This document shows, in pieces, positions 6,589 through 58,660 of a stretch of 64,000 bases of DNA. Position numbers and translations under genes: made by a program. Within the stretch, counting starts at the first letter, position 1; each line of letters starts with the position of its first letter. The stretch comes from Lysobacterales bacterium (lineage in GTDB: Bacteria; Pseudomonadota; Gammaproteobacteria; Xanthomonadales; Xanthomonadaceae): the NCBI GenBank assembly GCA_019510125.1, contig JAEKKX010000011.1, forward strand, positions 62,001 through 126,000, written 5' to 3'. The notes under the pieces are model-generated. The model did not search any database and was not told where the DNA came from. It worked only from the letters and a program-made list of their open reading frames with translations.

Positions 6589-7752
6589 ATGACCCCAGGC
6601 CTCCTCTGCTACTGCCGCGCCGGTTTCGAGCCCGAGCTCGCCGGCGAACTGACCGATCGCGCCGCGGAGGCGGGGCTCGCCGGCTACGCGCGCACCGAGC
6701 GCAACGCCGGCTACGCGCTGTTCCTGTCGGGCGACGATGGCGGCGACGACGACGGCGGCGACGCGCTGACGCAGGCGCTGCCGTTCGCCGACCTGATCTT
6801 CGCGCGGCAGAAACTGCTGCTGATCGCCGAACTGCGCGACCTGGACCCGAAGGACCGCATCGCGCCGATGCTGGCGGCGCTGACGGCTTTTGCTACCGCT
6901 TTTCGCAGGAGCGACGTCAGTCGCGATCACGGTACGGATCCTTCGCACGCGGGGTCGCGACTGACGTCGCTCCTACGAGCAGGGCGCTTCGGCACGCTGG
7001 TCGTCGAACATCCGGATTCCGACGACGCCAAGCCGCTCGCCGGCCTCGCCCGCAGCTTCGGCAACGCGCTGCGTCCCGCGCTGCGCAAGGCGGGCCTGCT
7101 GGCCGCGCAGGACGACGACCGGCTGCCGCGGCTGCACGTGTGCTTCGTCGCCGGCGACCACGCCTTCCTCGCGATCGGCGACCCGCGCGACAGCGCACCG
7201 TGGCCGATGGGCGTGCCGCGGCTGAAGATGCACGCCGACGCGCCGTCGCGCTCGGCGCTGAAGCTCGAGGAGGCGCTGCTGACCCTGCTCACCGCCGACG
7301 AGCGCGCGCGCCTGCTGCGCGAGGGCATGCGCGCGGCCGACCTGGGCGCCGCGCCCGGCGGCTGGACCTGGGTGCTGACCCGGCACGGCATCCACGTCAC
7401 CGCGATCGACAACGGCCCGCTGCGCCCGCACGTGATGGAGACCGGCCTGGTCCAGCACCTGCGCGCGGACGGGTTCGCGTGGCATCCGCCGAAGCCGCTG
7501 GACTGGATGGTCTGCGACATGGTCGAACAGCCCTCGCGGGTCGCCGCGCGCATGGCCGAGTGGTTCCGCGAAGGCTGGTGCCGGCACGCCGTGTTCAACC
7601 TGAAGCTGCCGATGAAGAAGCGCTGGCACGAGACCCGCCTGTGCCTCGACCGCTTCGCCGCCCAGGCCGGCCGCCCGCTGACGATCCGCGCGAAGCAGCT
7701 CTACCACGACCGCGAGGAGATCACGGTGTTCGCGACGCCGGCGAAAGCGTGA
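6589..7752 (+). CDS. rlmM: 23S rRNA 2'-O-ribose C2498 methyltransferase RlmM
   Basis: 387 residues from ATG 6589. The N-terminal THUMP-like part (GLLCYCRAGFEPELAGEL) is followed by a Rossmann methyltransferase with the SAM-binding motif AADLGAAPGGWTWVL and the catalytic NLKLPMKKRW region. It methylates the ribose of C2498 in 23S rRNA. Residues about 100-130 do not fit the family: between LDPKDRIAPMLAAL and RFGTLVVEHPDSD, where relatives have only a few residues, there is an extra stretch of about 30 encoded by a REP palindrome at 6907-6974. The frame is kept. The RlaP-type nucleotidyltransferase starts 4 nt downstream. Confidence 0.95.
   Translation: MTPGLLCYCRAGFEPELAGELTDRAAEAGLAGYARTERNAGYALFLSGDDGGDDDGGDALTQALPFADLIFARQKLLLIAELRDLDPKDRIAPMLAALTAFATAFRRSDVSRDHGTDPSHAGSRLTSLLRAGRFGTLVVEHPDSDDAKPLAGLARSFGNALRPALRKAGLLAAQDDDRLPRLHVCFVAGDHAFLAIGDPRDSAPWPMGVPRLKMHADAPSRSALKLEEALLTLLTADERARLLREGMRAADLGAAPGGWTWVLTRHGIHVTAIDNGPLRPHVMETGLVQHLRADGFAWHPPKPLDWMVCDMVEQPSRVAARMAEWFREGWCRHAVFNLKLPMKKRWHETRLCLDRFAAQAGRPLTIRAKQLYHDREEITVFATPAKA
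6907..6974 (+). repeat. Palindromic REP element inserted in frame in rlmM
   Basis: Perfect 20-bp inverted repeat: left arm 6907-6926 and right arm 6955-6974, both built on GGAGCGACGTCAGTCGCG, with a 28-bp loop. On the reverse strand the right arm begins GTAGGAGCGACG, the GTAG start of xanthomonad REP elements; the left arm has GCAG instead. It lies wholly within rlmM and adds about 23-30 codons without a stop. Confidence 0.9.
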
Positions 7753-7756
7753 TCCC

Positions 7757-8572
7757 ATGACGACCGAATTTCCGCCCCATCCCGCCATCCCCGCCGACGT
7801 CCACGCCGAGATCCTGCGCCGGCTGCGGCGCGCGGAAGCCGAGCACGGCGTCCGCATCCTGCTGGCGGTCGAATCCGGCAGCCGCGCCTGGGGCTTCGCC
7901 TCGCCCGATTCCGACTACGACGTGCGCTTCGTCTACGCGCATCCGCCGCGCTGGTACCAGGCGGTCGACCTGGAGGAGAAGCGCGACGTCATCGAGTACC
8001 CGATCGTCGACGACATCGACCTCAACGGCTGGGACGTGCGCAAGGCGCTGCGGCTGTTCCGCAAGTCCAATCCCGCGTTCGTGGAATGGATCCAGTCGCC
8101 GATCCGCTACCTCGAGCGCGGCGCGTTCGCCGCCGAGGCGCGCCGGCGGCTGCCGGAGGTCTACTCGGTCACGAACGGCCTGTACCACTACCGCAGCATG
8201 GCCAGGACCAACCATCGCGGCTACCTGCGCGAGGACCGGGTGCGGCTGAAGAAGTACTTCTACGCGCTGCGTCCGCTGCTGGCCGTGCTCTGGCTGGAGC
8301 GGCACGCGACCCCGGCGCCGATCGCGTTCGAGGCGCTGCTGCCCCTGATCGACGATCGGCCCGCGCTGTTGGCCGACATCCGCGACCTGCAGGCGCGCAA
8401 GCGCGTCGCCCCGGAAACCTGGGTCGGGGACGCGGTGCCCTCGCTCGACGCCTTCATCGAGCAGACGCTGGCGCGACTGGAAGGCCTCCGGCCCGACGCA
8501 GAAACGCGCGGCGACGTGCTGCCCGCGCTGAACACGCTGTTCCATCGCGTGCTGGACGAAATCGGCGACTGA
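7757..8572 (+). CDS. RlaP-type nucleotidyltransferase (predicted RNA repair polymerase-beta family)
   Basis: 271 residues. The minimal nucleotidyltransferase motif is clear: ESGSRAWGF (Gly41-Ser42) followed by PDSDYDVRF (Asp53, Asp55), the GS...DxD metal-binding signature of the DNA polymerase beta superfamily. The rest (FVEWIQSPI, HYRSMARTN, LKKYFYALRPLLA) agrees with the RlaP/YcgL family (Pfam PF10127), placed in RNA repair pathways by comparative genomics; its activity is not well established. It starts 4 nt after rlmM and is probably cotranscribed with this rRNA methyltransferase. Confidence 0.82.
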   Translation: MTTEFPPHPAIPADVHAEILRRLRRAEAEHGVRILLAVESGSRAWGFASPDSDYDVRFVYAHPPRWYQAVDLEEKRDVIEYPIVDDIDLNGWDVRKALRLFRKSNPAFVEWIQSPIRYLERGAFAAEARRRLPEVYSVTNGLYHYRSMARTNHRGYLREDRVRLKKYFYALRPLLAVLWLERHATPAPIAFEALLPLIDDRPALLADIRDLQARKRVAPETWVGDAVPSLDAFIEQTLARLEGLRPDAETRGDVLPALNTLFHRVLDEIGD

Positions 8573-8609
8573 GCGCGACACCCGCTTCCGGCCCGTCGCA
8601 TCCGTCTGC

Positions 8610-8615
8610 TAAGTT
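8610..8615 (+). promoter_or_regulatory. -10-like TAAGTT six bases before the EIIA start (leaderless candidate)
   Basis: TAAGTT, then GGCGGG, then ATG at 8622. The GGCGGG abuts the ATG and cannot serve as a ribosome site at that spacing. No -35 element identified. Confidence 0.35.
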
Positions 8616-8621
8616 GGCGGG

Positions 8622-9014
8622 ATGGCCGTCGGCATCCTCCTCGTGACCCACCCCGGCGTCGGGACCGCGCTCGTCGCCGTCGCGACCCGGCTGCTGCGCC
8701 AGTTGCCGCTAAAGACCGAGGCGTTCGAGGTCGCGTTCGACGCCGACCTCGACCTCACCCTGCCGCAGGCCAGCGCAGCGCTGCGCCGGGTGGACGGGGG
8801 CGACGGGGTGCTGGTGCTGACCGACCTGTACGGCGCCTCGCCCAGCAACCTGGCGGCGAAGCTGGCCCGGCTGGGCACGCCGGTGCGGCGGGTGGCGTCG
8901 CTCAACCTGCCGATGCTGCTGCGTGTAATGAACTACGCCGAGCTGCCGCTCGACGAACTGCCCGCGGTCGCGGCCGCCGGCGCGCGCAACGGAGCGATCT
9001 TCGATGACGCCTGA
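8622..9014 (+). CDS. PTS mannose/fructose-family EIIA-like phosphocarrier
   Basis: 130 residues, a stand-alone EIIA of the mannose class. The phosphorylatable histidine is His10 in GILLVTHPGVG, and the DLYGASPSNLA segment is typical of this fold. It should accept phosphate from HPr encoded 36 nt downstream. No EIIB or EIIC sugar permease is present here, so as in other xanthomonads the chain EI-HPr-EIIA is more likely a regulatory phosphorelay than a sugar transporter. HPr kinase and RapZ, often neighbours in this order, are not in this window. Confidence 0.9.
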   Translation: MAVGILLVTHPGVGTALVAVATRLLRQLPLKTEAFEVAFDADLDLTLPQASAALRRVDGGDGVLVLTDLYGASPSNLAAKLARLGTPVRRVASLNLPMLLRVMNYAELPLDELPAVAAAGARNGAIFDDA

Positions 9015-9050
9015 CGCCGCCGACCGCTCCCGCTTCCCGGAAACATCGCC

Positions 9051-9320
9051 ATGATCGAACGAGAACTGCCCATCCTGAACCGCCTCGGCCTGCACGCCCG
9101 CGCCACCGCCAAGCTGGTGCAGACGGTGTCGCCGTTCCGCTGCGCGGCCACGATCTCGGCCAAGGGCCGCGAGGTCAACGCCAAGAGCATCATGGGGGTC
9201 ATGCTGCTGGCCGCCGGCCAGGGCAGCACGGTGATCGTGCGCGTGGACGGCGAGGACGAGGAGGCGGCCATGGCCGCGATCTCCGCGCTGTTCGAGCGCC
9301 GCTTCGACGAGGATAGCTGA
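9051..9320 (+). CDS. ptsH: Phosphocarrier protein HPr
   Basis: 89 residues. The EI-dependent phosphorylation site is His15 in RLGLHARA, and a regulatory serine is present as Ser46 in NAKSIMGVM, so the protein could be controlled by an HPr kinase/phosphorylase encoded elsewhere. It sits between the EIIA and EI genes and ends 5 nt before ptsI, so the three form one operon. Confidence 0.95.
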   Translation: MIERELPILNRLGLHARATAKLVQTVSPFRCAATISAKGREVNAKSIMGVMLLAAGQGSTVIVRVDGEDEEAAMAAISALFERRFDEDS

Positions 9321-9325
9321 GACGC

Positions 9326-11059
9326 ATGAGACGGGTCCTCTCCGGCCAGGGGGCATCGCGCGGCGGCGCGCTGGGGCGCGCGCGCGTACGCCTGCCGCAT
9401 GCGCTGGACGTGGTCGAGGACCGGATCGAGCCCGAACTGGTCGAGGCCGAGGTCGCGCGCATGCACGCCGCGGTCGATGCGGTGCGCGAGGAAATGCACG
9501 CGCTGCGCGACCGCCTGCACGGCGCGCTCGCGCACGAGGTCGGCGAATTCCTCGACCTGCACGCGCTGCTGCTGGACGACCCCGAACTGCTGGCCGGCCT
9601 CGAAGGCCTGATCCGCACCGGCCGCTACACCGCCGACTACGCCCTGCGCCTGCAGCGCGACCGCATCGCCGCGGTGTTCGACGGCATGGACGACGCCTAT
9701 CTGCGCAGCCGCATCGACGACATCGACCAGGTCGTCGGCCGCCTGCACGCCGCGCTGCACCGGCGCGAGGCCGAACTGCAGGGCATCGCCGGCGACATCC
9801 TGGTCACCGACAGCGTGGCGCCGACCGAACTGGCGCAACTGCACGCCCAGGGCGTGCTGGCGGTGGTCACCGCCGGCGGCAGCCCGCTGTCGCACACCTC
9901 GATCCTCGCCCGCAGCCTGCACGTGCCGCTGGTGATCGGCGCCGCGCAGGCGCTGCAGAAGGTCAACGACGGCGACGTGCTGGCGGTGGATGGCGGCAGC
10001 GGTCTGGTGATCCTGGAGCCGAACGCCGACGACCTGCGCGCGCACCAGGGGCGCATGCGCGAGTACGCGCGCGAGCGCAAGCAGCTCCACCGGCTGCGGC
10101 GCGAACCCACGCGCACGCTCGACGGGGTCGACATCAAGCTGTGGGCCAACGCCGAGTCGCGCGAGGACGTGGCCGAGGCGCACGCGCTGGGCGCCGCCGG
10201 CGTCGGCCTGTACCGCACCGAATTCCTGTTCATGCACCGCCCGGCGGAACTGCGCCACACCCTGCCCGACGAGGAGGAGCAGTTCCGGGCCTATCGCGAC
10301 CTGGTGCTGGGGATGACCGGGCGCACGGTGACCATCCGCACCCTCGACATCGGCGCGGACAAGGCCGACAGCACCGGGCTGGCGCTCACCGACGAGCCCA
10401 ACCCGGCGCTGGGCCTGCGCGGCGTGCGCCTGTCGCTGGCGCGGATCGACCTGTTCCGCACCCAGTTGCGCGCGATCCTGCGCGCCAGCGGCTACGGCCC
10501 GCTGCGGGTGCTGGTGCCGATGGTCAGCGGCCGCGAGGAACTGCTCGCGGTGCGCACGCTGCTGCGCGACGTGCAGCGCGAACTGCGCGCCGAGGGCCAG
10601 GCGATGGCCGAACACGTGCCGGTCGGGGCGATGATCGAAGTGCCGTCGGCCGCGATCGCGCTGCAGACCTTCATCGCCGACACCGACTTCCTGTCGATCG
10701 GCACCAACGACCTGGTCCAGTACCTGCTCGCCGCCGACCGCACCAACGAAGCGCTGGGCGATCTGTATTCGCCGCTGCATCCGGCGGTGCTGCGGCTGTT
10801 GTTCGACGTCATCCGCGCCGCGCGCACGCAGAAGAAGCCGGTGGCGGTCTGCGGCGAGATCGCCGGCGACCCGCTGTTCGCGCCGGTGCTGCTGGCGCTG
10901 GGGCTGGAGGAGTTCAGCCTGCACCCGGGGACGCTGCTGGAGGTGCGCCGGGCGATCCGCGGCCTCGACCTGTCGGCCCTGCGCAGCCGGGCCGCGATCC
11001 TGCTGCGCGCCCGCGACCGCGCCGGCATCGAGCGCTGGCTGGCGCGCGTGGCGACGTGA
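9326..11059 (+). CDS. ptsI: PTS enzyme I (phosphoenolpyruvate-protein phosphotransferase)
   Basis: 577 residues, normal length for enzyme I. It transfers phosphate from PEP to HPr. The active-site histidine is His190 in TAGGSPLSHTSILARS. The C-terminal PEP-binding barrel is recognised from GLYRTEFLFMHR, TIRTLDIGADK and SIGTNDLVQYLLAADR with CGEIAGDP near the end. Last gene of the EIIA-HPr-EI operon except for the small membrane protein whose GTG start overlaps its stop. Confidence 0.95.
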   Translation: MRRVLSGQGASRGGALGRARVRLPHALDVVEDRIEPELVEAEVARMHAAVDAVREEMHALRDRLHGALAHEVGEFLDLHALLLDDPELLAGLEGLIRTGRYTADYALRLQRDRIAAVFDGMDDAYLRSRIDDIDQVVGRLHAALHRREAELQGIAGDILVTDSVAPTELAQLHAQGVLAVVTAGGSPLSHTSILARSLHVPLVIGAAQALQKVNDGDVLAVDGGSGLVILEPNADDLRAHQGRMREYARERKQLHRLRREPTRTLDGVDIKLWANAESREDVAEAHALGAAGVGLYRTEFLFMHRPAELRHTLPDEEEQFRAYRDLVLGMTGRTVTIRTLDIGADKADSTGLALTDEPNPALGLRGVRLSLARIDLFRTQLRAILRASGYGPLRVLVPMVSGREELLAVRTLLRDVQRELRAEGQAMAEHVPVGAMIEVPSAAIALQTFIADTDFLSIGTNDLVQYLLAADRTNEALGDLYSPLHPAVLRLLFDVIRAARTQKKPVAVCGEIAGDPLFAPVLLALGLEEFSLHPGTLLEVRRAIRGLDLSALRSRAAILLRARDRAGIERWLARVAT

Positions 11060-11418
11060 TCGACGGACGGCCGCCGCCGGACCCGGAACGGATCGCGCGC
11101 TGGGAGGACCACGCGGTGCGGCTGCTGGCCGCACGCGACGCGCCGGACAGCGTGGTCGATGCGCTGCGCCACCTCGGCTGCCCGAAGGACCTCGCGCAGG
11201 AGATCGTCGCGCGCAGCAAGGCCCCGGCGACGTCGCTGCTGCGGCGCAAGGGCGTCGGCATCCTGCTGACCGGGCTGGGCATGATCGTCGCCAGCCTGCT
11301 CGTCGCGGCATTCGCCGCCAGCGCCGATGTCCACGTCTTCAGCGGGCGGATGCTCTGGCTGCTGATCCTCGGCATCGGCACCGCGTTCTACGGCTTGTTC
11401 CAGATCGTCTTCGGCTGA
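11056..11418 (+). CDS. Small membrane protein of unknown function at the end of the PTS operon
   Basis: 120 residues starting from GTG 11056, whose first four bases overlap the ptsI stop (GTGA), indicating translational coupling. The N-terminal half is a soluble helical segment (about 10-55, with RHLGCPKDLAQEIVARS); two transmembrane helices follow (about 65-88 and 95-118). No family recognised. Its place suggests a role near the phosphorelay, but this is inference only. Confidence 0.7.
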   Translation: MIDGRPPPDPERIARWEDHAVRLLAARDAPDSVVDALRHLGCPKDLAQEIVARSKAPATSLLRRKGVGILLTGLGMIVASLLVAAFAASADVHVFSGRMLWLLILGIGTAFYGLFQIVFG

Positions 11419-11435
11419 CGCCGACCCCGATGCAC

Positions 11436-11513
11436 GCTCGGTAGAGCGGCCTTCAGGCCGCTGCTGTTGGCGTCATCTCGAAAGGCAGCGGCCTGAAGGC
11501 CGCTCTACCGAGC
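11436..11513. repeat. Head-to-head pair of GTAG REP elements (BIME-like)
   Basis: Perfect 28-bp inverted repeat: 11436-11463 and 11486-11513, separated by 22 bp. Each arm carries GTAG followed by its own small hairpin AGCGGCCTTCAGGCCGCT. The same element with 26-bp arms occurs at 27044-27129. It lies between the convergent PTS operon and purL and could also act as a bidirectional terminator. Confidence 0.9.
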
Positions 11514-11526
11514 GAATGCCTGCCCC

Positions 11527-11638
11527 ACGGCGCGCGGCAGTGCCGCGCAGCCGCCGTCGCTGGCTGAAGCCCCCGGCCCGCCGCAGCGCGGCGGGCGTTC
11601 GCGACGGCGCGCGGCAGTGCCGCGCAGCCGCCGTCGCT
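11527..11638. repeat. 35-bp direct repeat of a hairpin next to the purL stop codon
   Basis: The sequence at 11527-11561 recurs without mismatch at 11604-11638. Each copy contains the hairpin GCGCGGCAGTGCCGCGC. The second copy runs up to the first base of the purL stop anticodon triplet (11638-11640). The 42 bp between copies contains another GC hairpin (CCCGCCGCAGCGCGGCGGG). Function unknown; possibly transcript-end stabilisation for purL. Confidence 0.75.
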
Positions 11639-14600
11639 CACCCCACCGACACGCGGGCGTTGCGGAACATGCGCAGCCACGGCGCGTCTTCCGGCCACTC
11701 GGCGGGATGCCAGCTCAGGTTGGCGCTGCGCGGGGTGCGTTCGGGGTGCGGCATGAGGATGGTCACCCGGCCGTCGCGGGTGGTGAGGCCGGCGATCGCG
11801 TCCTCCGAACCGTTCGGGTTGGCCGGGTAGCTCGTCGCCGGGGCGCCGTCGCCGGCGACGTAGCGCAGGGCGACGGTCGCGGCCATGCGGTCGGCGGGCA
11901 CGTCGAACGCGACCCGGCCTTCGCCGTGGGCGATCGCCACCGGGAGCCGCGAACCGGCCATGCCGCGGAAGAACAGCGACGGCGAATCGACGACCTCCAG
12001 CATCCCGAAGCGCGCCTCGAACTGCTCGCTGCGGTTGCGCAGGAAGCGCGGCCAGTGCTCGGCGCCGGGGATGATCGCCTTGAGCTGCGACAGCATCTGG
12101 CAGCCGTTGCACACGCCCAGCGCGAAGCTGTCGGGGCGGGCGAAGAACGCCGCGAACGCGTCGCGCAGCGCCGGGCGCTCCAGGATCGAGGTCGCCCAGC
12201 CGCGGCCGGCGCCGAGCACGTCGCCGTAGCTGAAACCGCCGCAGGCCGCGAAGCCGGCGAAGCCGTCCAGCGCGACGCGTCCGGCGATGAGGTCGCTCAT
12301 GTGCACGTCGACCGCGGCGAACCCGGCGCGGTCGAAGGCCGACGCCATCTCGATCTGGCCGTTGACGCCCTGCTCGCGCAGGATCGCCACGCGCGGACGC
12401 GCGCCGGTGGAAATGTACGGCGCGGCCACGTCCCCGGCGGCATCGAAGGTGAGCTTCGGCTGCAGGCCCGGGGCATCGAAGCGGCGCACCGCGGCGCGCT
12501 CCTCGTCGGCGGATTCGGGGTTGTCGCGCAGGCGCTGCATCGCGTGGGTGACCGACCACCAGGCGTCGAACAGCGCCTCCCAGCGCCACTCGGCCAGCAC
12601 CTCGCCGTCCTCCAGCACGCGCACCGCGGCGGCGGTGGTCGGGCGGGCGATGCGCTGCGCGCATTCGATCAGGCCGTGGCGGGCGACGAGGTCGGCGAAC
12701 TCGGCGCGATCCTCCTCGGCGATCTCCACGATCAGGCCCAGCTCCTCGGTGAACAGGGTGCGCAGCGGATCGTCGCCCCAGTCGTCGAGCTGCAGGTCGA
12801 GGCCGACGTGCGAGGCGAACGCCATCTCGCACAGCGCGGCGAAGGCGCCGCCGTCGGAACGGTCGTGGCAGGCGCGGACCAGGCCGCGCCCGCGGGCGTC
12901 GCGCAGCAGCTCGAACAGCGCGCGCAGGCGTTCGGGATCGTCGAGGTCGGGCACGGCGTCCTCGCCGTGACGACCGCCGAAGCCGTCGTACACCTGCGCC
13001 AGGATCGATCCGCCCAGGCGCTTGCGGCCGGCGCCGAGACCGATCAGCCACAGTTCGGTGCCCGGCTCGCGCGAGAGCAGCGGCGTCAACTGGCCGCGCA
13101 CGTCCTCGACCGGCGCGAACGCGGTGACGATCAGCGACACCGGCGACACCGACTTGTGCGCCTCGCCGGCCTGCTGCCACTGCGCCTGCATCGACAGCGA
13201 GTCCTTGCCGACCGGGATGCTGAGGTCGAGCTCGGGGCACAGCGCCATGCCGACCGCCTTCACCGCGTCGAACAGGCGCGCGTCCTCGCCGGCGTGGCCG
13301 GCGGCGGCCATCCAGTTCGCGGACAGCTTGACCCGGTCGAGCGACGCGACCGGCGCGGCGAGCAGGTTGGTGATCGCCTCGCCGACGGCCATCCGCGCGG
13401 CGGCGGCGGCGTCGATCAGCGCCAGCGGGGTGCGCTCGCCGATCGCCATCGCCTCGCCGGAGAAAGTGTCGAAGCCCGACAGTGTGATCGCGCAATCGGC
13501 CACCGGCATCTGCCACGGCCCGACCATCTGGTCGCGCGCAGTCAGGCCGCCGACGCTGCGGTCGCCGATCGTGATCAGGAACGACTTCGCGGCCACCGCC
13601 GGGTGCGCGAGCACGCGCAGGCCGGCCTCGTGCAGGTCGATGGTCTGGCCGTTGAGCACCGGCCACGCGGTGGCCTTCGGACGACGCGCGTCGCGGTGCA
13701 TCTTCGGCGGCTTGCCGAACAGCACGTCCATCGGCAGGTCGATCGCGGGCGCCACCGGCGCGACGCCGGCGACGGCGCCCTCGCCCACCACCAGCCGCTC
13801 CTCGGCGGTCGCGGCGCCGACGACTGCGAACGGGCAGCGCTCGCGCTCGCAGATCGCGGTGAAGTCGGCCAGCCGGTGCGGGGCGACGCCGAGCACGTAG
13901 CGCTCCTGCGATTCGTTGCACCACAACTGCATCGGCGACAGCGACGGATCGTCGGTGGGCACCTTCGCCAGGTCGATCGTGCCGCCGACCGACGAGTCGT
14001 GCAGCAGTTCGGGGATCGCGTTCGACAGGCCGCCGGCGCCGACGTCGTGGACGCTGAGGATCGGATTGTCCTCGCCCAGCGCCACGCAGCGGTCGATCAC
14101 TTCCTGGCAGCGGCGCTCCATCTCCGGGTTGTCGCGCTGCACGCTGGCGAAATCGAGGTCTTCGGCGCTCTCGCCGGAGGCGACCGAACTGGCCGCGCCG
14201 CCGCCGAGGCCGATCAGCATCGCCGGGCCGCCGAGCACGATCACCGCGTCGCCGGGCGACAGCGACTTCTTCGCCACCATCGGCCGGTCGACGGCGCCGA
14301 GGCCGCCGGCGAGCATGATCGGCTTGTCGTAGGCGCGGACCAGGCCGGTGTCGGGCTCGCGGACTTCGAAGCTGCGGAAATAGCCGGCGAGGTTGGGCCG
14401 GCCGAACTCGTTGTTGAACGCGGCCGCGCCGAGCGGGCCGTCGAGCATGATCTCCAGCGCCGGCGCCATCCGCGGATTGAGCGCGCGTTCGCCTTCCCAG
14501 GGCTGCGGCAGCGTGGGGATGCGCAGGTGCGAGACGCTGAAGCCGGCGAGGCCGGCCTTGGGCTTGCCGCCGCGGCCGGTCGCGCCCTCGTCGCGGATCT

Positions 14601-51346: not shown

Positions 51347-51781
51347 GTGTCCTTCTTTACGACGTCACTGCGGCCGTTGCTGCTGATTCCCTGCCTCGCG
51401 GCAAGTGGATGCTTGTTTGAAACACCCAGTTCCAGTTTCGCAGATCGCGCAGACGCCGAGCACAGCGAACTGTTCCACAAGGGCTGGCTGCCAGAGTGGA
51501 TTCCACCGTCCGCCAAGCGGATCCGCGAAAAGCATGACATCGACAGCAATGCGACGCTGATCCGATTCGAGTTCTCGCCGCCGGACCACCCCCCGTTTGG
51601 CAAGGCATGTGTGGAGACGACACACGAGGCACTGGAATTCACCTGGCTCGACGCCTACTGGTGGCCGACGCACGACGTCCTGGCGAGGATGCCGCACGTC
51701 TACCATTGCCCTCTTGATTCCGGTTATCTCGCCATCCCCGCAGAGGGTGGCCTCGCCTATTTCTGGAGAACCCGCGCATGA
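51347..51781 (+). CDS. Small putative lipoprotein of lower GC, overlapping purD
   Basis: 144 residues from GTG 51347 (preceded by CCGGGG); starts at 51317 or 51323 would add ten or eight residues before the signal sequence. The N-terminus [20 protein letters not shown] then GC looks like a lipoprotein signal. The rest is soluble with many aromatic residues ([13 protein letters not shown]). Not recognised. Its stop overlaps the purD ATG (ATGA), so translation is coupled. GC is lower than in neighbours, suggesting later insertion. Confidence 0.7.
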
Positions 51782-53067
51782 AACTCCTCGTCATCGGTTC
51801 CGGCGGCCGCGAACACGCCCTCGCCTGGAAGCTCGCGCAGTCGTCGCGCGTGAGCGAAGTGCTGGTCGCGCCGGGCAACGCCGGCACGGCGACGGAGGCG
51901 AAGTGCCGGAATGCCGCAGTGAAGGCGACGGACCTCGACGGCCTCGTCGCGCTGGTGCGCGCCGAAGGCGTGGCGGTGACGGTGGTCGGGCCGGAAGCGC
52001 CGCTGGTGGCGGGCGTGGTCGATCGCTTCCGCGCCGAAGGCCTGCGCGTGTTCGGCCCGACGGCCGCGGCGGCGCAACTGGAAGGCAGCAAGGCGTTCGC
52101 GAAGGATTTCCTCGCCCGCCACGGCATCCCGACTGCGTACTACGCCGTGCACACCGATGTCGATGCCGCGCTCGCTTACATCCGCGAGAAAGGAGCACCC
52201 ATCGTGGTCAAGGCCGACGGCCTGGCCGCGGGCAAGGGCGTGATCGTGGCGATGACGCAGGCCGAGGCCGTGGCCGCGGTGCGCGACATGCTGTCGGGCA
52301 ACGCGTTCGGCGCCGCCGGAGCGCGGGTGGTGATCGAGGAATTCCTCGACGGCGAGGAAGCCAGCTTCATCTCGATGGTCGACGGCGTCACCGCATTGCC
52401 GATGGCGACCTCGCAGGACCACAAGCGCGTGGGCGACGGCGACACCGGCCCGAACACCGGCGGCATGGGCGCGTACTCGCCCGCGCCGGTGGTCACGCCC
52501 GAGGTGCATGCGCGGGTGATGCGCGAGGTGGTCGAGCCGACCGTGCGCGGCATGGCCGCCGACGGCGTACCGTTCACCGGTTTCCTCTACGCGGGGCTGA
52601 TGATCGACGCGGCCGGCGCGCCGAAAGTGATCGAATTCAACGTGCGCTTCGGCGACCCGGAAACGCAGCCGGTGATGCTGCGGCTCGACAGCGACCTGCT
52701 GGACCTGGTCGAGGCCGCGATCGACGGCCGCCTGCACGCTGTCGAGGCGCGCTGGAGTCCGCAACCGTCGCTGGGCGTGGTGATGGCCGCCTCGCCCTAC
52801 CCCGACACGCCGCGCAGCGGCGACGTCATCCACGGTCTCGACGCGCCGCAGCCGGCGCACGCCAAGGTCTTCCACGCCGGCACCGCGTTCGACGCCGGCG
52901 GCCGCGTGGTCACCGCCGGCGGCCGCGTATTGTGCGTCTGCGCCCGCGGCGACACCGTCGCCGACGCGCAGCGCGAAGCCTACGCCGCGCTGGCGAAGAT
53001 CGGCTGGGACGGCGAATTCCACCGCAGCGACATCGGCTGGCGGGCGGTGGCGCGGGAGCGGGGCTGA
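51778..53067 (+). CDS. purD: Phosphoribosylamine--glycine ligase
   Basis: 429 residues from ATG 51778. [18 protein letters not shown] starts the N-domain; the ATP-grasp core has [49 protein letters not shown] and [14 protein letters not shown]. It makes GAR in purine synthesis. Confidence 0.97.
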
Positions 53068-53554: not shown

Positions 53555-53956
53555 TCAGCGCTTCTTCGCCGCCTTCGCCGGCGCGTGCTGCTTCGACAGT
53601 TCCTCGATCAGGCTGCGGACCAGCTTGCGCTGCGAGGCCGGAAGCCTGAGGAATGTCTCGATCGCGAGCTGGTCGTGCGGGTTCATCCGCCACTCGCCGC
53701 GGGTCTCGCGGACGTGTTTGTCGCTGCCGAACTGCAATTGCTGCGGTTCCATCGACAGCATCCGCGCCAGCGCGCGCATGTTGCCCTGCCGGGGCATGGC
53801 GCGGCCGTTGAGCCAGCCGGAGATCGCCTGCTGGGAGACGGGTTCGCCGCCGAAACGGGCGAGCAGGCGCACGAGTTCGGCCGGACTCTCGCTCATTCCG
53901 GCTTGGCGCAGAGCGGCGCGCAAGCGCTCGCTGAAAGCGTCTTGTTCGGTCTTCAT
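53555..53956 (-). CDS. XRE-family transcription regulator 1
   Basis: 133 residues from ATG 53956. An N-terminal CI/Cro-type helix-turn-helix (RLRAALRQAG, recognition region PVSQQAISGWLNGRAMPRQG, then MRALARMLSM and EPQQLQFG) and a C-terminal helical tail rich in Lys (APAKAAKKR). Close paralogue of the next gene. A near-perfect 21-bp palindrome begins right next to its start codon, so it is likely to repress itself. Confidence 0.88.
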   Translation of the reverse strand: MKTEQDAFSERLRAALRQAGMSESPAELVRLLARFGGEPVSQQAISGWLNGRAMPRQGNMRALARMLSMEPQQLQFGSDKHVRETRGEWRMNPHDQLAIETFLRLPASQRKLVRSLIEELSKQHAPAKAAKKR

Positions 53957-54021: not shown

Positions 54022-54414
54022 TCAGGGCTTGCGCGCCCCGCCGGAACGGACGAATTCGTCGATGACCTGGCGCAGCAGCCGGCGCTGGGCCGGGGGCAAC
54101 TGCAGATAGGCCTCGATGGCCAGTCGGTCGCGCGGATCGAGGCCACCCTCGGTCCGATCCTCGCGTCCACGCTTGTCGTCGTCGCCGTATTGCAACTGCT
54201 GCGGCTCCATTGCCAGCATCTTCGCCAGCGCCCTGAGATTGGTCTGCCTGGGCATCGCCCGCCCCCTCAACCACCCGGAGACGGCTTGCTGCGACACCGG
54301 CTCGCCGCCGAAGCGCGCGAGCAAACGCACCAGTTCGACCGGGCTCTCGCCGAGGCCCGCCCTGTGCAACGCAGCGCGCAGCCTCTGGCTGAACGCGATC
54401 TGTTCATTGCGCAT
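54022..54414 (-). CDS. XRE-family transcription regulator 2
   Basis: 130 residues from ATG 54414. Roughly 60 percent identical to XRE1 by eye: RLRAALHRAGLGESPVELVR, PVSQQAVSGWLRGRAMPRQT, LRALAKMLAMEPQQLQYG; the C-terminus is DPRDRLAIEAYLQLPPAQ followed by RRLLRQVIDEF. The two arose by tandem duplication. It is divergent to the type III Res-like gene, with a 105-bp gap. Confidence 0.88.
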   Translation of the reverse strand: MRNEQIAFSQRLRAALHRAGLGESPVELVRLLARFGGEPVSQQAVSGWLRGRAMPRQTNLRALAKMLAMEPQQLQYGDDDKRGREDRTEGGLDPRDRLAIEAYLQLPPAQRRLLRQVIDEFVRSGGARKP

Positions 54415-54474
54415 CACCTGACGTCGGGCCGGTGCACGCCAGCATTGGAAAGATGTGGTTTGTACCATATCAAA
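54414..54474. promoter_or_regulatory. Divergent control region of XRE2 and the Res-like gene
   Basis: TCACC at 54414-54418 and GGTG at 54431-54434 frame a site that resembles the XRE1 operator with a one-base longer left part (TCACCTGAC then GGGCCGGTG). Further right an AT-rich stretch has TTTG-N8-CAAA at 54459-54474, an imperfect palindrome in a region fit for promoters in both directions. The second site could be another operator. Confidence 0.5.
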
Positions 54475-54519
54475 CTTTTTGTTAGCGTGCGGCTCCACCG
54501 ATGACAGGGAGGGCCTGGG

Positions 54520-56667
54520 ATGCCGAACATGCGGACCGAGCGGTCGCGGCATCGGTGCCGGGACGAATCGCTTCCGCCGCCCGGCATCGCCGGGACCGGA
54601 CCGATCACATCCGCAGCGCCGCCGCTGGCGCTGGCCCTGGAGTACGCCGCGCGCGCCCTGCTGGCCGAACTGGAGGCGCCAGCCAGCGGCCGCACGCCGC
54701 GACGCGCCCCAGGCGCACTGCTTCTTCAACGGCTGTCGCCGGTCGGCGTGGAACTGCTGCAGTGGTGGTGCGCCGAGCGCGTGTGCCGGACCCGCACCGA
54801 CAACTTCAACGCGGCGCAGCGGCAGGCGCTGGTCCACCTGCTGCTGGCGCACGAGGCCCTGCGCAGCGACGATGCAGACATCCTGCATCAGCGCGCCTGC
54901 GGGTCGCCCTCGCGCCGCGATCTTCCCCGCGGCATCCCGGAACGCGCGCACCACGCGCTGCGCCTCGCTCCGGGCAGCGGCCTGCGCTGGGTGCTGCAGG
55001 CGCTGATCGTCTGGCGCTGGGCGCACGCGCCCGACGATCCTGCGTCGCCCTGGCGGATGACCGCGATCGCGGCGACGCCGGGCATCGCCGACCGGCTGCG
55101 CCGCGCGCTGTCGAACCAGGACACCGCCAGCCTGCATCGCCACGCCCGGCTGTTCCTGCCGCCCGGCCGCCGCGCGGCGTTCCGCGAATGGCTGGACCGC
55201 GCTTGCGCGGGGCCGTCGCCGGCGCTGCGCGTGATCGACGCGACCGTCGCCGGGGTCGCGCCGGCGGGGCCGCTGACCCTGATCGCCGAGCGTCGCACCG
55301 GGCCCGGCGCCGGAGCGCCTGCGCGTCTGCGCGTGGACCTGCGCACCGACGCGGGCGGCGCCGGGCCGGTGCCGCTGACCGCGTTCGACGTCGCCCGTGC
55401 GGTCCGCCGCGGCGCGTGCAAGCTGCCGACGCTGGTGCCGATCGCCCGCACCGGCGCGGCGCTGCCCGCGACCCCGCCGCGACGCGCGGGCCTGCGCCCC
55501 CGCCTCGGCCGGATCCATCGCGCGCAACTGGAAGCGGGCCTGCGCGAACTGCGGGCCCGCGACGAGCCCTTCGCCGCGCTCGATCCCGCGCGGCGTCCGC
55601 GCATGGCCCTGTTCTGCGATGCGCCGGCCACGCTGCGGGCGGCGCGCCGCTGGCTGCGCGACGCTGGTTTCGCCGCCGATGCGGTGGCCCCGGCACGCGA
55701 CGCGACGCCGGCGCCGCAGGTCCGGGTGACCCTCGACACGCTGCCGCCGCGGGCGAGCCTTGCCGACCCGCGGGTCTGCGTCGTGGTCGCGCTGCGCAGC
55801 CATCGCGCGCCCGGCGGCGGCGCGGCGTCCGCCGAATCGATGCTCGCCGCCGGCGGGGCGCTGCTGTGGCCGGAGCCGGAGTTCGCCGAACTGCGCGACG
55901 AGATGCTGGAGCGCGCCGGTCGCGGCCGGCCGCCGCGGCATCGGCTGGACGTGCTGGCGGTGATCGACGACCCACGCTGCCGGCCGGACTACGCGGGCCT
56001 GCCGCACGCGCCGCCGGCCGAGGCCGACGTGCCGGCGACGGACGACTTCTTCCTGCCCGGCCAGCGCGACGATGCGGCGCTCCACGACCTGGCGATCCCG
56101 CCGGACTGCACCGCCCCCGCGGGCGCAGACCCGGAGCGGCTGCGCGACGCGCCACGACGGCTGTTGCGCCGGCGCCGGACGACGCCGGTGCGCAAGTCGG
56201 TGACGACCCACGCCGCCTGCGACGATCGCAACGGCGGACTGCAGGCCGCCTTCGTGGCCGCCGCCGAGGCCGATCCCCTGGTCGAAAGCCACGCGCTGCT
56301 CGACCCGCGGCGGCAGGCGCTGCGCGCGCACGAGGCGCTGCTGGCGCGCGCCCCGGACGGCGCCGGCTGGCCGGAAGCGCTGGTGCGCACCGCGGAACGC
56401 GTCTACCTGGTGGATTTCCAGGCGTCCTGTCCCGCCGCGCCGGTCCCGCCGACGCCCGGCGAACGCGCGCTGGCGCTGTGGCTGCGCCATGTCGACGCCC
56501 TGCCGCCGCGGCAGCGCGACGACCGGCGCTGGTGCCGGGCCTCGCTGCCGGCGCCGCTGTTCTGGTCGTGGAAGCGCAGCGGCGGCGCGCTGTCCCATCT
56601 GCTCGCCAGACTGGCCGACGCGTCGACGCCGACGCGACTCGTGCGGTCGCCCTGGACCTCGCCCTGA
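54520..56667 (+). CDS. Degenerate type III restriction helicase/nuclease-like protein
   Basis: 715 residues from ATG 54520, with GGGAGGG upstream. Unannotated by obvious motifs, but several blocks resemble type III Res DEAD/DEAH proteins: FNAAQRQALVHLLLAHEAL (about 96-114), LAPGSGLRWVLQALIVWRWA (about 149-168), LHRHARLFLPPGRRAAFREW, LRELRARDEPFAALDP then RPRMALFCDA (about 342-368) and WPEALVRTAERVYLVDFQA (about 617-635). Where relatives have A-T-G-T/S-G-K-T this protein has APGSGLR, losing the Walker Lys and Thr; where they have PD...ETK it has PE...DFQ, losing the nuclease Lys. It is also shorter, with the DEAD-box region reduced. Likely inactive as an enzyme yet with an intact frame. Regulated perhaps by XRE1/2. 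Confidence 0.6.
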   Translation: MPNMRTERSRHRCRDESLPPPGIAGTGPITSAAPPLALALEYAARALLAELEAPASGRTPRRAPGALLLQRLSPVGVELLQWWCAERVCRTRTDNFNAAQRQALVHLLLAHEALRSDDADILHQRACGSPSRRDLPRGIPERAHHALRLAPGSGLRWVLQALIVWRWAHAPDDPASPWRMTAIAATPGIADRLRRALSNQDTASLHRHARLFLPPGRRAAFREWLDRACAGPSPALRVIDATVAGVAPAGPLTLIAERRTGPGAGAPARLRVDLRTDAGGAGPVPLTAFDVARAVRRGACKLPTLVPIARTGAALPATPPRRAGLRPRLGRIHRAQLEAGLRELRARDEPFAALDPARRPRMALFCDAPATLRAARRWLRDAGFAADAVAPARDATPAPQVRVTLDTLPPRASLADPRVCVVVALRSHRAPGGGAASAESMLAAGGALLWPEPEFAELRDEMLERAGRGRPPRHRLDVLAVIDDPRCRPDYAGLPHAPPAEADVPATDDFFLPGQRDDAALHDLAIPPDCTAPAGADPERLRDAPRRLLRRRRTTPVRKSVTTHAACDDRNGGLQAAFVAAAEADPLVESHALLDPRRQALRAHEALLARAPDGAGWPEALVRTAERVYLVDFQASCPAAPVPPTPGERALALWLRHVDALPPRQRDDRRWCRASLPAPLFWSWKRSGGALSHLLARLADASTPTRLVRSPWTSP

Positions 56668-56734
56668 ACCGGGCCACGCAACTCTGCTAGGCTCGCCCCG
56701 ACCCGCCGGCGGAGGCCGGCACCGCGGAGCGCGC

Positions 56735-58660
56735 ATGGCCCACCATCAGACCGACCTGCTGCGGCAGCGCCGCTTCCTGCCGTTCTTCTCGGTGCAGTCG
56801 CTGGGCGCGTTCCTGGACAACGTCTACCGGCAGAGCATCATCGGCCTGCTGTTCTGGATGGGCGTGAGCACCGAGGAGCGCACGCTGTACGCGAACCTCG
56901 CGCCGGCGCTGTTCATCCTGCCGTTCTTCCTGTTCTCCGGCATCGCCGGGCAGATCGCCGAGAAGCTGGAGAAGTCGCGGCTGATCCGCATCACCACGGT
57001 CATGGGCATCGCGGTGATGGCGGTGGCCGCGGTCGGGTTCCTGCTGCACAGCCTGCCGCTGCTGCTGGCCGCGCTGTTCTTCCTCGGCGTGCATTCGACC
57101 CTGTTCGGCCCGGTGAAGTATTCGATCCTGCCGTCGGTGCTCAAGCCCGAGGAGCTCACCGGCGGCAACGGCCTGGTCGAGATGGGCACGTCGCTGTCGA
57201 TCCTGGTCGGGATGATCGTCGGCGGCCTGATCTTCCAGCTCGCCGGCGCGCACGGGCCGCAGGTCGCGGCGCTGGCGGTGCTGGCGATCGCGTTCGCCGC
57301 CTACTTCGCCAGCCGCGCGGTGCCGCCGTGCGACGCCGGCGCGCCGGAGCTGAAGATCCAGTGGAACCCGATCCCCGAATCGGTGCGCATGCTCGCGCTC
57401 ACCCGCCGGCAACTGGCGGTGCGCAATTCGGTGCTCGGCGTGTCGTGGTTCTGGTTCGTGGGCACGGTGCTGACCTCGCAGTTGCCGGCCTACGCCGAGC
57501 TGCACATGGGCGGTGGCCAGCACCAGTCGCTGTACATCTTCGCGCTGGCGCTGTTCTCGATCGGCACCGGCATCGGCTCGATGCTGTGCGAACGGCTGTC
57601 GGGCCGAGTGGTCGAGATCGGCCTGGTGCCGCTGGGCGCGTTCGGGATGAGCGCGTTCCTGTTCGACCTGTACTTCGCGCGCAGCGGGGCGTCGCCGGCC
57701 ACCGACCTGGGCGTGATCGACTTCCTGCGCCAGCCGGGAAGCTGGCGGATCGCGCTGGACCTCACCGGCGTCGGCCTGTTCACCGGCCTGTTCGTGGTGC
57801 CGCTGTTCGCGCTGATCCAGAGCCGCACGCCGAAGCGCGAACTGTCGCGGGTGATCGCCGGGGTCAACATCCAGAACGCGATCTTCATCGTGCTGGCGGC
57901 CGGGCTGGGGGTCGCGCTGCAGATGAAGTCGCTCACCCTGGGTGGCATCACCGTGCCGATGCCGGGGCTGAGCATCCCGCAGGTGTTCCTGGCGCTGGCG
58001 ATCGCCAACACCCTGGTGGCGCTGTGGATCTTCACCATCGTGCCCGAGTTCTTCATGCGCTTCCTGAGCTGGGTGCTGGTGCGCACGCTGTACCGGCTGA
58101 AGCTGCACGGGATCGAGCGGCACGTGCCGGACGAGGGCCCGGCGGTGATCGTCTGCAACCACGTCACCTACATGGACGCGCTGGTGCTGTCGGCCAGCAT
58201 CCCGCGACCGATCCGCTTCGTGATGTACTACAAGATCTTCAACGTGCCGGTGATGCGCTGGATCTTCCGCACCGCCAAGGCGATCCCGATCGCCGGCGCG
58301 AAGGAGGACCCGGAGATCATGCGGCGGGCGTTCGAGGAGATCGACGCCGCGCTGGCCGACGGCCAGCTCGTCGGCATCTTCCCGGAGGGGGCGCTGACCC
58401 GCGACGGCGCCATCGCGCCGTTCAAGGCCGGCGTGGAAAAAGTGCTGGAACGACGCCCGGTGCCGGTGGTGCCGATGGCGCTGAAGAACATGTGGACCAG
58501 CATGTGGAGCAAGCGCGACGGTCGCCTGGCGCGGATGCGCGTGCCGCGACGCTTCCGCGCGCACGTGGACGTGGTCGCGGGCGAGCCGGTGGACGGGCGC
58601 GAGGCCGGGGCCGCGATGCTGGAGGCGCGGGTGCGGGCGCTGCGCGGCGACGCCGCCTGA
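56735..58660 (+). CDS. MFS lysophospholipid transporter - PlsC acyltransferase fusion
   Basis: 641 residues from ATG 56735. Residues 1 to about 430 form a 12-helix LplT-like MFS domain (RRFLPFFSVQSLGAFLDNVYRQ reads as its first segment). A PlsC domain follows with VCNHVTYMDALVL (H-x4-D), GIFPEGALTRDG and VPVVPMALKN. The usual third domain of the long fusion, an AMP-forming acyl-ACP synthetase as in Aas, is missing. It probably brings in and reacylates lysophospholipids. Confidence 0.88.
   Translation: MAHHQTDLLRQRRFLPFFSVQSLGAFLDNVYRQSIIGLLFWMGVSTEERTLYANLAPALFILPFFLFSGIAGQIAEKLEKSRLIRITTVMGIAVMAVAAVGFLLHSLPLLLAALFFLGVHSTLFGPVKYSILPSVLKPEELTGGNGLVEMGTSLSILVGMIVGGLIFQLAGAHGPQVAALAVLAIAFAAYFASRAVPPCDAGAPELKIQWNPIPESVRMLALTRRQLAVRNSVLGVSWFWFVGTVLTSQLPAYAELHMGGGQHQSLYIFALALFSIGTGIGSMLCERLSGRVVEIGLVPLGAFGMSAFLFDLYFARSGASPATDLGVIDFLRQPGSWRIALDLTGVGLFTGLFVVPLFALIQSRTPKRELSRVIAGVNIQNAIFIVLAAGLGVALQMKSLTLGGITVPMPGLSIPQVFLALAIANTLVALWIFTIVPEFFMRFLSWVLVRTLYRLKLHGIERHVPDEGPAVIVCNHVTYMDALVLSASIPRPIRFVMYYKIFNVPVMRWIFRTAKAIPIAGAKEDPEIMRRAFEEIDAALADGQLVGIFPEGALTRDGAIAPFKAGVEKVLERRPVPVVPMALKNMWTSMWSKRDGRLARMRVPRRFRAHVDVVAGEPVDGREAGAAMLEARVRALRGDAA

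Follow-up and report, generated by a model that had tools for sequence, protein, structure and literature searches.

Organization of the locus

We analyzed a 64,000-nucleotide stretch of the genome of a Lysobacterales bacterium, referred to here as the window. Between purD and a gene for an MFS-acyltransferase fusion, it carries a gene for a type III Res-like protein whose catalytic motifs are lost (pseudo-Res), and two tandem XRE regulator genes lie upstream on the opposite strand (Table 1). The order purD, XRE (reverse strand), pseudo-Res (forward strand), MFS-acyltransferase gene is constant across the genus loci, to the extent that their contigs cover it. In the window, the first conserved residue of the MFS-acyltransferase protein is encoded ∼80 bp past the pseudo-Res stop codon.

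Table 1. Features of the pseudo-Res locus, with positions and strands in the window and residues of pseudo-Res
Feature	Position	Strand	Description
purD	51778..53067	+	Left flank of insertion site; Pfam GARS domains
XRE2	53555..53956	-	Tandem paralogue of XRE1; 133 aa; Pfam HTH_3 27.5 bits
XRE1	54022..54414	-	Divergent HTH_3 regulator; 130 aa; Pfam HTH_3 26.9 bits, cutoff 23
Putative XRE operator TATCAAACTTTTTGTTA	54468..54484	+	Near-palindrome between XRE1 and pseudo-Res, conserved in genus
Pseudo-Res gene	54520..56667	+	715 aa; type III Res-like, catalytic motifs lost
Former Walker A	54967..54987	+	Residues 150-156, APGSGLR; ATGTGKT in intact relatives
DEAH and SATP segments missing	∼55291..55389	+	Residues ∼258-290; boundaries approximate, alignment gapped
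Former PD-(D/E)xK site	56371..56421	+	Residues 618-634, PE...VDFQ; PDF...ETK in intact relatives
C-terminal block APLFWSWKR	56551..56577	+	Residues 678-686; strongly conserved in dead copies
MFS-acyltransferase fusion gene	56747..58660	+	Right flank; Pfam MFS_1, Acyltransferase; start approximate

The two XRE proteins are 67% identical, and both gene positions were matched in all 10 of the other genus loci that cover the region. In one species (G002, locus L021, 10067-10457), the matches to XRE2 fall in two frames, which may reflect a frameshift or an error of assembly. Across the genus, the ∼75-bp stretch between XRE1 and pseudo-Res shows high conservation. It contains TATCAAACTTTTTGTTA, which in L026, L029, and L030 is a perfect palindrome, TAACAAA-N3-TTTGTTA. 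A small HTH_3 protein, a divergent arrangement, and a palindrome between the genes are the features of a controller-type HTH regulator, and the palindrome is a putative binding site for it. By eye, the corresponding stretch of intact and reduced modules elsewhere (L031, L062, L070, and L115 to L117) has a different repeat, around CTTTCAT, which suggests that the putative operator changed along with the regulator. An earlier note on this DNA listed neither the XRE genes nor the near-palindrome.

Translation confirmed the frame of 715 codons without a stop that the note had described, and an RBS-like gggag precedes its ATG (judged by eye). This open frame is weak evidence by itself, because a 904-aa antisense ORF covers the same DNA. 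That ORF (54022-56736, reverse strand) spans pseudo-Res, shares its frame with XRE1, and cautions against trusting open frames in a GC-rich genome.

Homology and distribution of pseudo-Res

The relationship to type III Res proteins proposed in the earlier note is weak in a direct profile comparison but is made firm by an intact homologue. The best profile for both intact and dead Res is NCBIfam NF046055 (BPTD_3080 family restriction endonuclease), of which neither is a member: pseudo-Res matches it with an E value of 0.00085 and 17.4 bits, against a curated cutoff of 800. The homologue, encoded in a genome of another genus (G012; L031:7692-10631, 980 aa), matches the same profile with an E value of 4.8e-57 and 193.6 bits, again under the cutoff, and Pfam ResIII with an E value of 2.6e-11. 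It has all of the motifs ATGTGKT, DEAHH, DFSATP, QTIGRGLRL, and PDF...ETK. Pseudo-Res and this protein match on three separate stretches (P0001; E = 8.6e-20, 3.9e-15, and 1.7e-14), and through it pseudo-Res is homologous to the Res helicase-nucleases.

Pfam and PADLOC scans of the pseudo-Res protein gave nothing usable, and phage records gave no match. Comparison with solved structures yielded no significant similarity in sequence or fold. Sequence searches of the PDB returned zero matches, and Foldseek found none at E ≤ 0.001 (best E = 0.21) with an AlphaFold2 model built from 11 genus sequences (pLDDT 60, pTM 0.47; much of residues 35 to 270 and parts of the C-terminal domain at fair confidence). 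The top Foldseek ranks were mostly SF2 helicases (E values of 0.2 to 1), which agrees weakly with the Res link.

Among 59 genomes searched at the protein level, counting that of the window, 12 had pseudo-Res homologues, namely, 11 of the window's genus and G012. Within the genus, all 11 genomes examined have the gene and the matches are free of stops, although in G006 it is divided between two contigs. A pattern-based scan with the alignment of the dead family, covering one genome from each of 84,980 species and identifying genes by exact sequence, recovered 10 loci. Because all 10 belong to the window's genus, the dead form appears to be confined to it, within the reach of the scan. Binning error is not the cause, because one of the genomes (G004) consists of a single contig.

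Loss of both catalytic centers

We aligned 22 intact and 10 dead Res copies, leaving out that of G006 (gene cut between contigs). The note had read the P-loop as APGSGLR and an altered nuclease site as PE...VDFQ and had concluded that both catalytic centers were lost. Both readings hold, and the two centers are lost in 10/10 dead copies and 0/22 intact relatives. Inspection of conservation near residues 149 to 157 and 617 to 635, a check that it had proposed, showed that all 10 aligned genus copies share the losses. The Walker lysine is present in all 22 intact proteins and absent from every dead one, so that no GKT remains, and the residue after it is T in 22/22 intact and R in 10/10 dead copies. 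In the nuclease site, the lysine is lost from all 10 dead copies, leaving none with a complete motif; PD or an acidic residue persists in some.

The loss exceeds the first description, as DEAH and SATP are gone too. DEAH is absent from all of the dead copies, and SATP is deleted, except that a single copy has one residue aligned there; at the DEAH/SATP positions, a few dissimilar residues line up. One of the motif VI arginines is lost in 10/10 dead copies and the other in 9/10, and motifs V and VI are unrecognizable in pseudo-Res. In these families, such residues underlie ATPase and PD-(D/E)xK nuclease function. Judged by its motifs, pseudo-Res should have neither a working ATPase nor a working PD-(D/E)xK nuclease.

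Much of the rest of the protein is conserved. Defining a conserved column as one shared by at least 95% of the intact and 90% of the dead copies, we counted 92 columns that are conserved in each of the two sets. The residue is identical between the sets in 72 of these, and in the other 20 each set has its own fixed residue; 107 of the 520 columns conserved in intact Res are deleted in the dead copies. The C-terminal block APLFWSWKR reads WSCKR in three dead copies, and residues 678, 679, and 683 of pseudo-Res are fixed differently from the intact relatives.

Purifying selection on pseudo-Res

Pseudo-Res is under purifying selection, weaker than that on its neighbors, and the constraint is moderate. 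Of eight pairs analyzed by pairwise codon maximum likelihood (custom script; not independent, because pairs have genomes in common), seven were usable and gave omega values of 0.189, 0.121, 0.114, 0.176, 0.247, 0.213, and 0.172, with dS at 1.1 to 1.8 in four of them. The eighth pair (WIN/L022) was saturated (dS 11) and excluded. An omega of 1 was rejected in all seven (2dlnL of 37 to 352), and neutral simulations of three pairs, 60 for each, had minima of 0.69, 0.73, and 0.46, versus observed values of 0.19, 0.12, and 0.21. Wrong-frame controls gave omega values above 1, with the exception of antisense frame 1 (0.22 to 0.29), whose low omega arises because it shares wobble positions with the sense frame; 6 to 9 codon pairs had to be dropped for stops in this antisense frame and none in the sense frame. 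For purD, omega was 0.03 to 0.05 across seven pairs, two of them with just 72 codons; it was 0.02 to 0.06 for the MFS-acyltransferase gene in five pairs, and 0 to 0.11 for XRE1 in six kept rows; an XRE row (L030/L026) that probably mixed two paralogues was dropped.

The note had left a choice between a fresh pseudogene and a retained nonenzymatic role. The first does not stand in view of the low omega and of genus-wide retention with shared losses, and the second is favored. The dN/dS check on orthologues that it suggested returned low omega together with the same substitutions across the genus, not the relaxed selection, omega near 1, and random disruption of a pseudogene. We consider it very unlikely that pseudo-Res is just a dying restriction gene, its frame open merely because stops are rare in GC-rich DNA. 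Few stops in the other frames, the overlapping antisense ORF, and clear young decays in the family (G351 with a split Res, G731, G732, G767, and G719) would all fit such a view. Opposed to it are the rejection of omega = 1 at values of 0.11 to 0.25 in the seven usable pairs, simulations that never came down to the observed omega, and losses common to 10/10 copies, alongside conservation of 92 columns in intact and dead Res alike. The young decays, moreover, show the opposite pattern, with catalytic residues kept in what remains.

It is scarcely credible that the frame is kept only against polarity on the downstream MFS-acyltransferase gene or to carry transcription or translation into it. The two genes are indeed co-directional, and the first conserved residue of the downstream protein lies ∼75 to 240 bp past the pseudo-Res stop in the loci compared. 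However, selection for openness preserves no particular residues, and pseudo-Res retains 72 ancient residues as well as the APLFWSWKR block. In five relatives, furthermore, purD and the MFS-acyltransferase gene lie ∼40 to 700 bp apart without any gene of this kind in the interval.

Intact cassettes and the insertion site

The note had seen no Mod methyltransferase gene nearby, and this absence extends through the genus: no linked Mod was matched in any of the genus loci (L020 to L030). Searches of the whole genomes gave Mod matches in 8/11, partial only and at 30 to 54% identity, and in the window's genome no close Mod relative was found. At the same purD/MFS-acyltransferase junction, G012 carries an XRE gene, Mod (N6_N4_Mtase, 3.1e-36), and the intact Res. 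The junction of nine other relatives had no XRE, Mod, or Res match, and in five of these the flanking matches are 0.04 to 0.7 kb apart; the gap in G017 is ∼0.34 kb by coordinates alone. Because relatives lack a cassette there and G012 has one, we regard the junction as an insertion site. It accepts other insertions as well, since in G016 it holds a gene for a FUSC-like membrane protein (L128, 6118-8487, reverse strand). In an XRE tree, from which XRE2 of L021 was left out (two frames) and in which the L027 labels may be swapped, the G012 XRE falls outside the genus group; its cassette may thus be a separate arrival and need not be the direct ancestor.

All 23 chromosomal loci of the live type that were examined (L031, L062 to L069, and L101 to L114, with Res split in L069) have Mod, and 22 of them have a detectable divergent XRE; in L112, none was detected in the stretch fetched. 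A single XRE match was seen in 20 of the 22 loci with XRE matches, and in L067 (G086, 9933-13036), Mod was matched as two pieces ∼1.05 kb apart. Among 395 family genomes, live copies that are near complete and at least 71% identical numbered 8 (query included), and one further copy was split. Live Res also matched 61 plasmid records, 12 over at least 80% of its length, with 51 to 58% identity among the matches listed, and 28 of the 61 are predicted to be conjugative. On plasmid Apa386Bp3 of Acetobacter pasteurianus, an annotated methyltransferase adjoins Res (WP_020944730/WP_020944731, methyltransferase and DEAD/DEAH helicase), and pLB1 carries a "putative type III restriction-modification enzyme" with no methyltransferase annotated beside it.

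The Res of the intact XRE-Mod-Res cassettes (L031 of G012, Apa386Bp3, and pLB1) is homologous to pseudo-Res along the retained blocks. The intact chromosomal cassettes resemble the window in the divergent XRE upstream of 22/23 and, in G012, in the junction occupied. They have Mod, the helicase motifs, and PD...ETK, whereas the window's genus has none of these but two XRE genes.

Reduced modules in other genomes

Five further genomes hold modules that, in the stretch fetched, lack Mod and consist of a divergent XRE and a diverged Res fragment with altered catalytic motifs. One (L070) keeps an N-terminal part of Res, with GAGTIQ and VAGR, and another (L115) keeps the N-terminal and middle parts, with PGEARI and VDEGEPP. 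The other three, L116 (G593), L117 (G558), and L119 (G472), come from three genera of another family and keep only the C-terminal part, in frames of 330 to 379 aa that are 36 to 48% identical. Their nuclease motifs read PHF...VDLH, PDF...VELH (lysine alone lost), and PRY...VDLD, respectively, so that the catalytic lysine has become His or Asp. Pfam gave nothing usable for the fragments of L115 to L117 and L119, and omega for the three C-terminal-only modules was saturated and left unused. In the XRE tree, a single clade (support 0.98) unites L116, L117, and L119; L115 is placed among live XREs, and L070 groups with live L064 and L068, adjoining the genus clade. Reduced modules thus seem to have arisen several times, although support for the deep nodes is low (0.47 for the genus clade).

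These modules bear on whether pseudo-Res might be a partner or effector of the XRE pair, acting as co-repressor, anti-repressor, or sensor in a small host switch with no part in cassette defense. This is conceivable, if somewhat improbable. It would suit the XRE1 omega, which is below that of pseudo-Res, the highly conserved intergenic stretch, and a divergent arrangement kept both in the genus loci and in the five other reduced modules. Yet 22 of the 23 live-type loci also have a divergent XRE, and because intact cassettes have it, the pairing of XRE with Res is an inherited one that does not prove a new partnership. The other reduced modules also keep quite different parts of Res, and XRE2 may be broken in G002.

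A probable domesticated restriction subunit

Homology to Res, motif loss, absence of Mod, synteny, selection, and regulator duplication are established here at the level of sequence comparison. We think it quite likely that pseudo-Res is a retained, domesticated pseudo-restriction subunit. A mobile XRE-Mod-Res (type III-like) cassette would have entered the purD/MFS-acyltransferase junction in an ancestor of the genus. Mod would then have been lost, and Res would have shed both catalytic centers and the DEAH/SATP segment. What was left of Res is held by purifying selection behind the conserved operator-like palindrome and the two tandem XRE genes, whose products may control the pseudo-Res promoter. 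Pseudo-Res itself presumably acts by binding protein or DNA rather than by catalysis. EcoP15I Res operates as part of a Mod2Res1 complex and is believed to be stabilized by Mod (PMC4005696); purifying selection on a Res without Mod therefore suggests another, probably binding, role. Weighing against a retained subunit are its omega of 0.11 to 0.25, several times the 0.02 to 0.06 of its neighbors, the possibility that one regulator copy is broken in G002 (XRE2 of L021, in two frames), and the mediocre structural model without a significant Foldseek match.

To our knowledge, few pseudoenzymes derived from restriction subunits and with evidence of selection are known. The type III Res proteins of EcoP15I and EcoPI have the plan of an SF2 helicase with a RecB-family nuclease, which would have been that of the pseudo-Res ancestor as well (PMC4005696, PMC4490356); pseudo-Res differs from them in lacking the ATPase site, the nuclease site, and Mod. 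Like the solitary restriction endonucleases described by Ershova et al. in 2012 (PMC3488263), it is a restriction gene without a methyltransferase, and active-site mutation is one possible explanation offered there for solitary restriction genes. The parts of that paper considered here do not describe a Res that is dead in both centers, under selection across a lineage, and accompanied by its regulators, and separated type III systems were not identified in that study. In titles and abstract starts of the open-licence literature, we found no genus-wide selected Res with both centers dead, Mod lost, and the regulator duplicated. Solitary restriction genes are thus known, whereas the case here is a restriction pseudo-subunit, genus-wide and under selection: both Res centers and the partner are gone, yet the rest is conserved across the genus, and further reduced copies occur elsewhere in the regulator tree. 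The locus is a clean setting in which to study what a restriction subunit can do other than cleave DNA and whether selfish restriction cassettes are turned by hosts into protection against such cassettes.

As to what the domesticated subunit does, it is possible, though we hold this only tentatively, that pseudo-Res is a decoy or dominant-negative Res that, with the XRE regulators, blunts the establishment of live cassettes of its own family that enter the cell. We give this role about the same weight as that of a partner of the XRE pair, and these are the two leading readings. Mutual exclusion through regulators is reportedly the theme of a 1998 study by Nakayama and Kobayashi. A review (PMC3874152) attributes to resident units an "immunity" to killing after loss of a restriction plasmid and also speaks of vaccination and anti-addiction effects. 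Members of the live family are mobile and occur on plasmids. Two findings argue against a decoy: no close Mod relative was found in the window's genome, and pseudo-Res has lost parts of the helicase, motif V among them, with which EcoP15I contacts DNA (PMC4490356). In genomes with a reduced module, no live cassette was seen, and by our estimate fewer than one was expected. A still more speculative and rather doubtful extension is that loss of Mod repeatedly yields modules of XRE and dead Res, retained by the host as an anti-restriction "vaccine" in which the dead subunit and the regulators poison or preempt incoming live copies. If so, the window's genus would have a fixed, genus-wide locus of this kind with a duplicated regulator.

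Young inactivations in the cassette family

Ordinary decay is apparent in the cassette family as well, since young deletions and a split Res are seen, but to judge from the remaining motifs, it looks different from the dead form of the genus. In three young Res deletions, L121 (G767), L123 (G732), and L124 (G731), the remaining part retains its catalytic residues, and Mod is deleted in two; these are possibly first steps toward reduced modules. The live-type Res of L069 (G351, 6912-9847) is split into two frames near residue 463 beside an intact Mod, a young inactivation.
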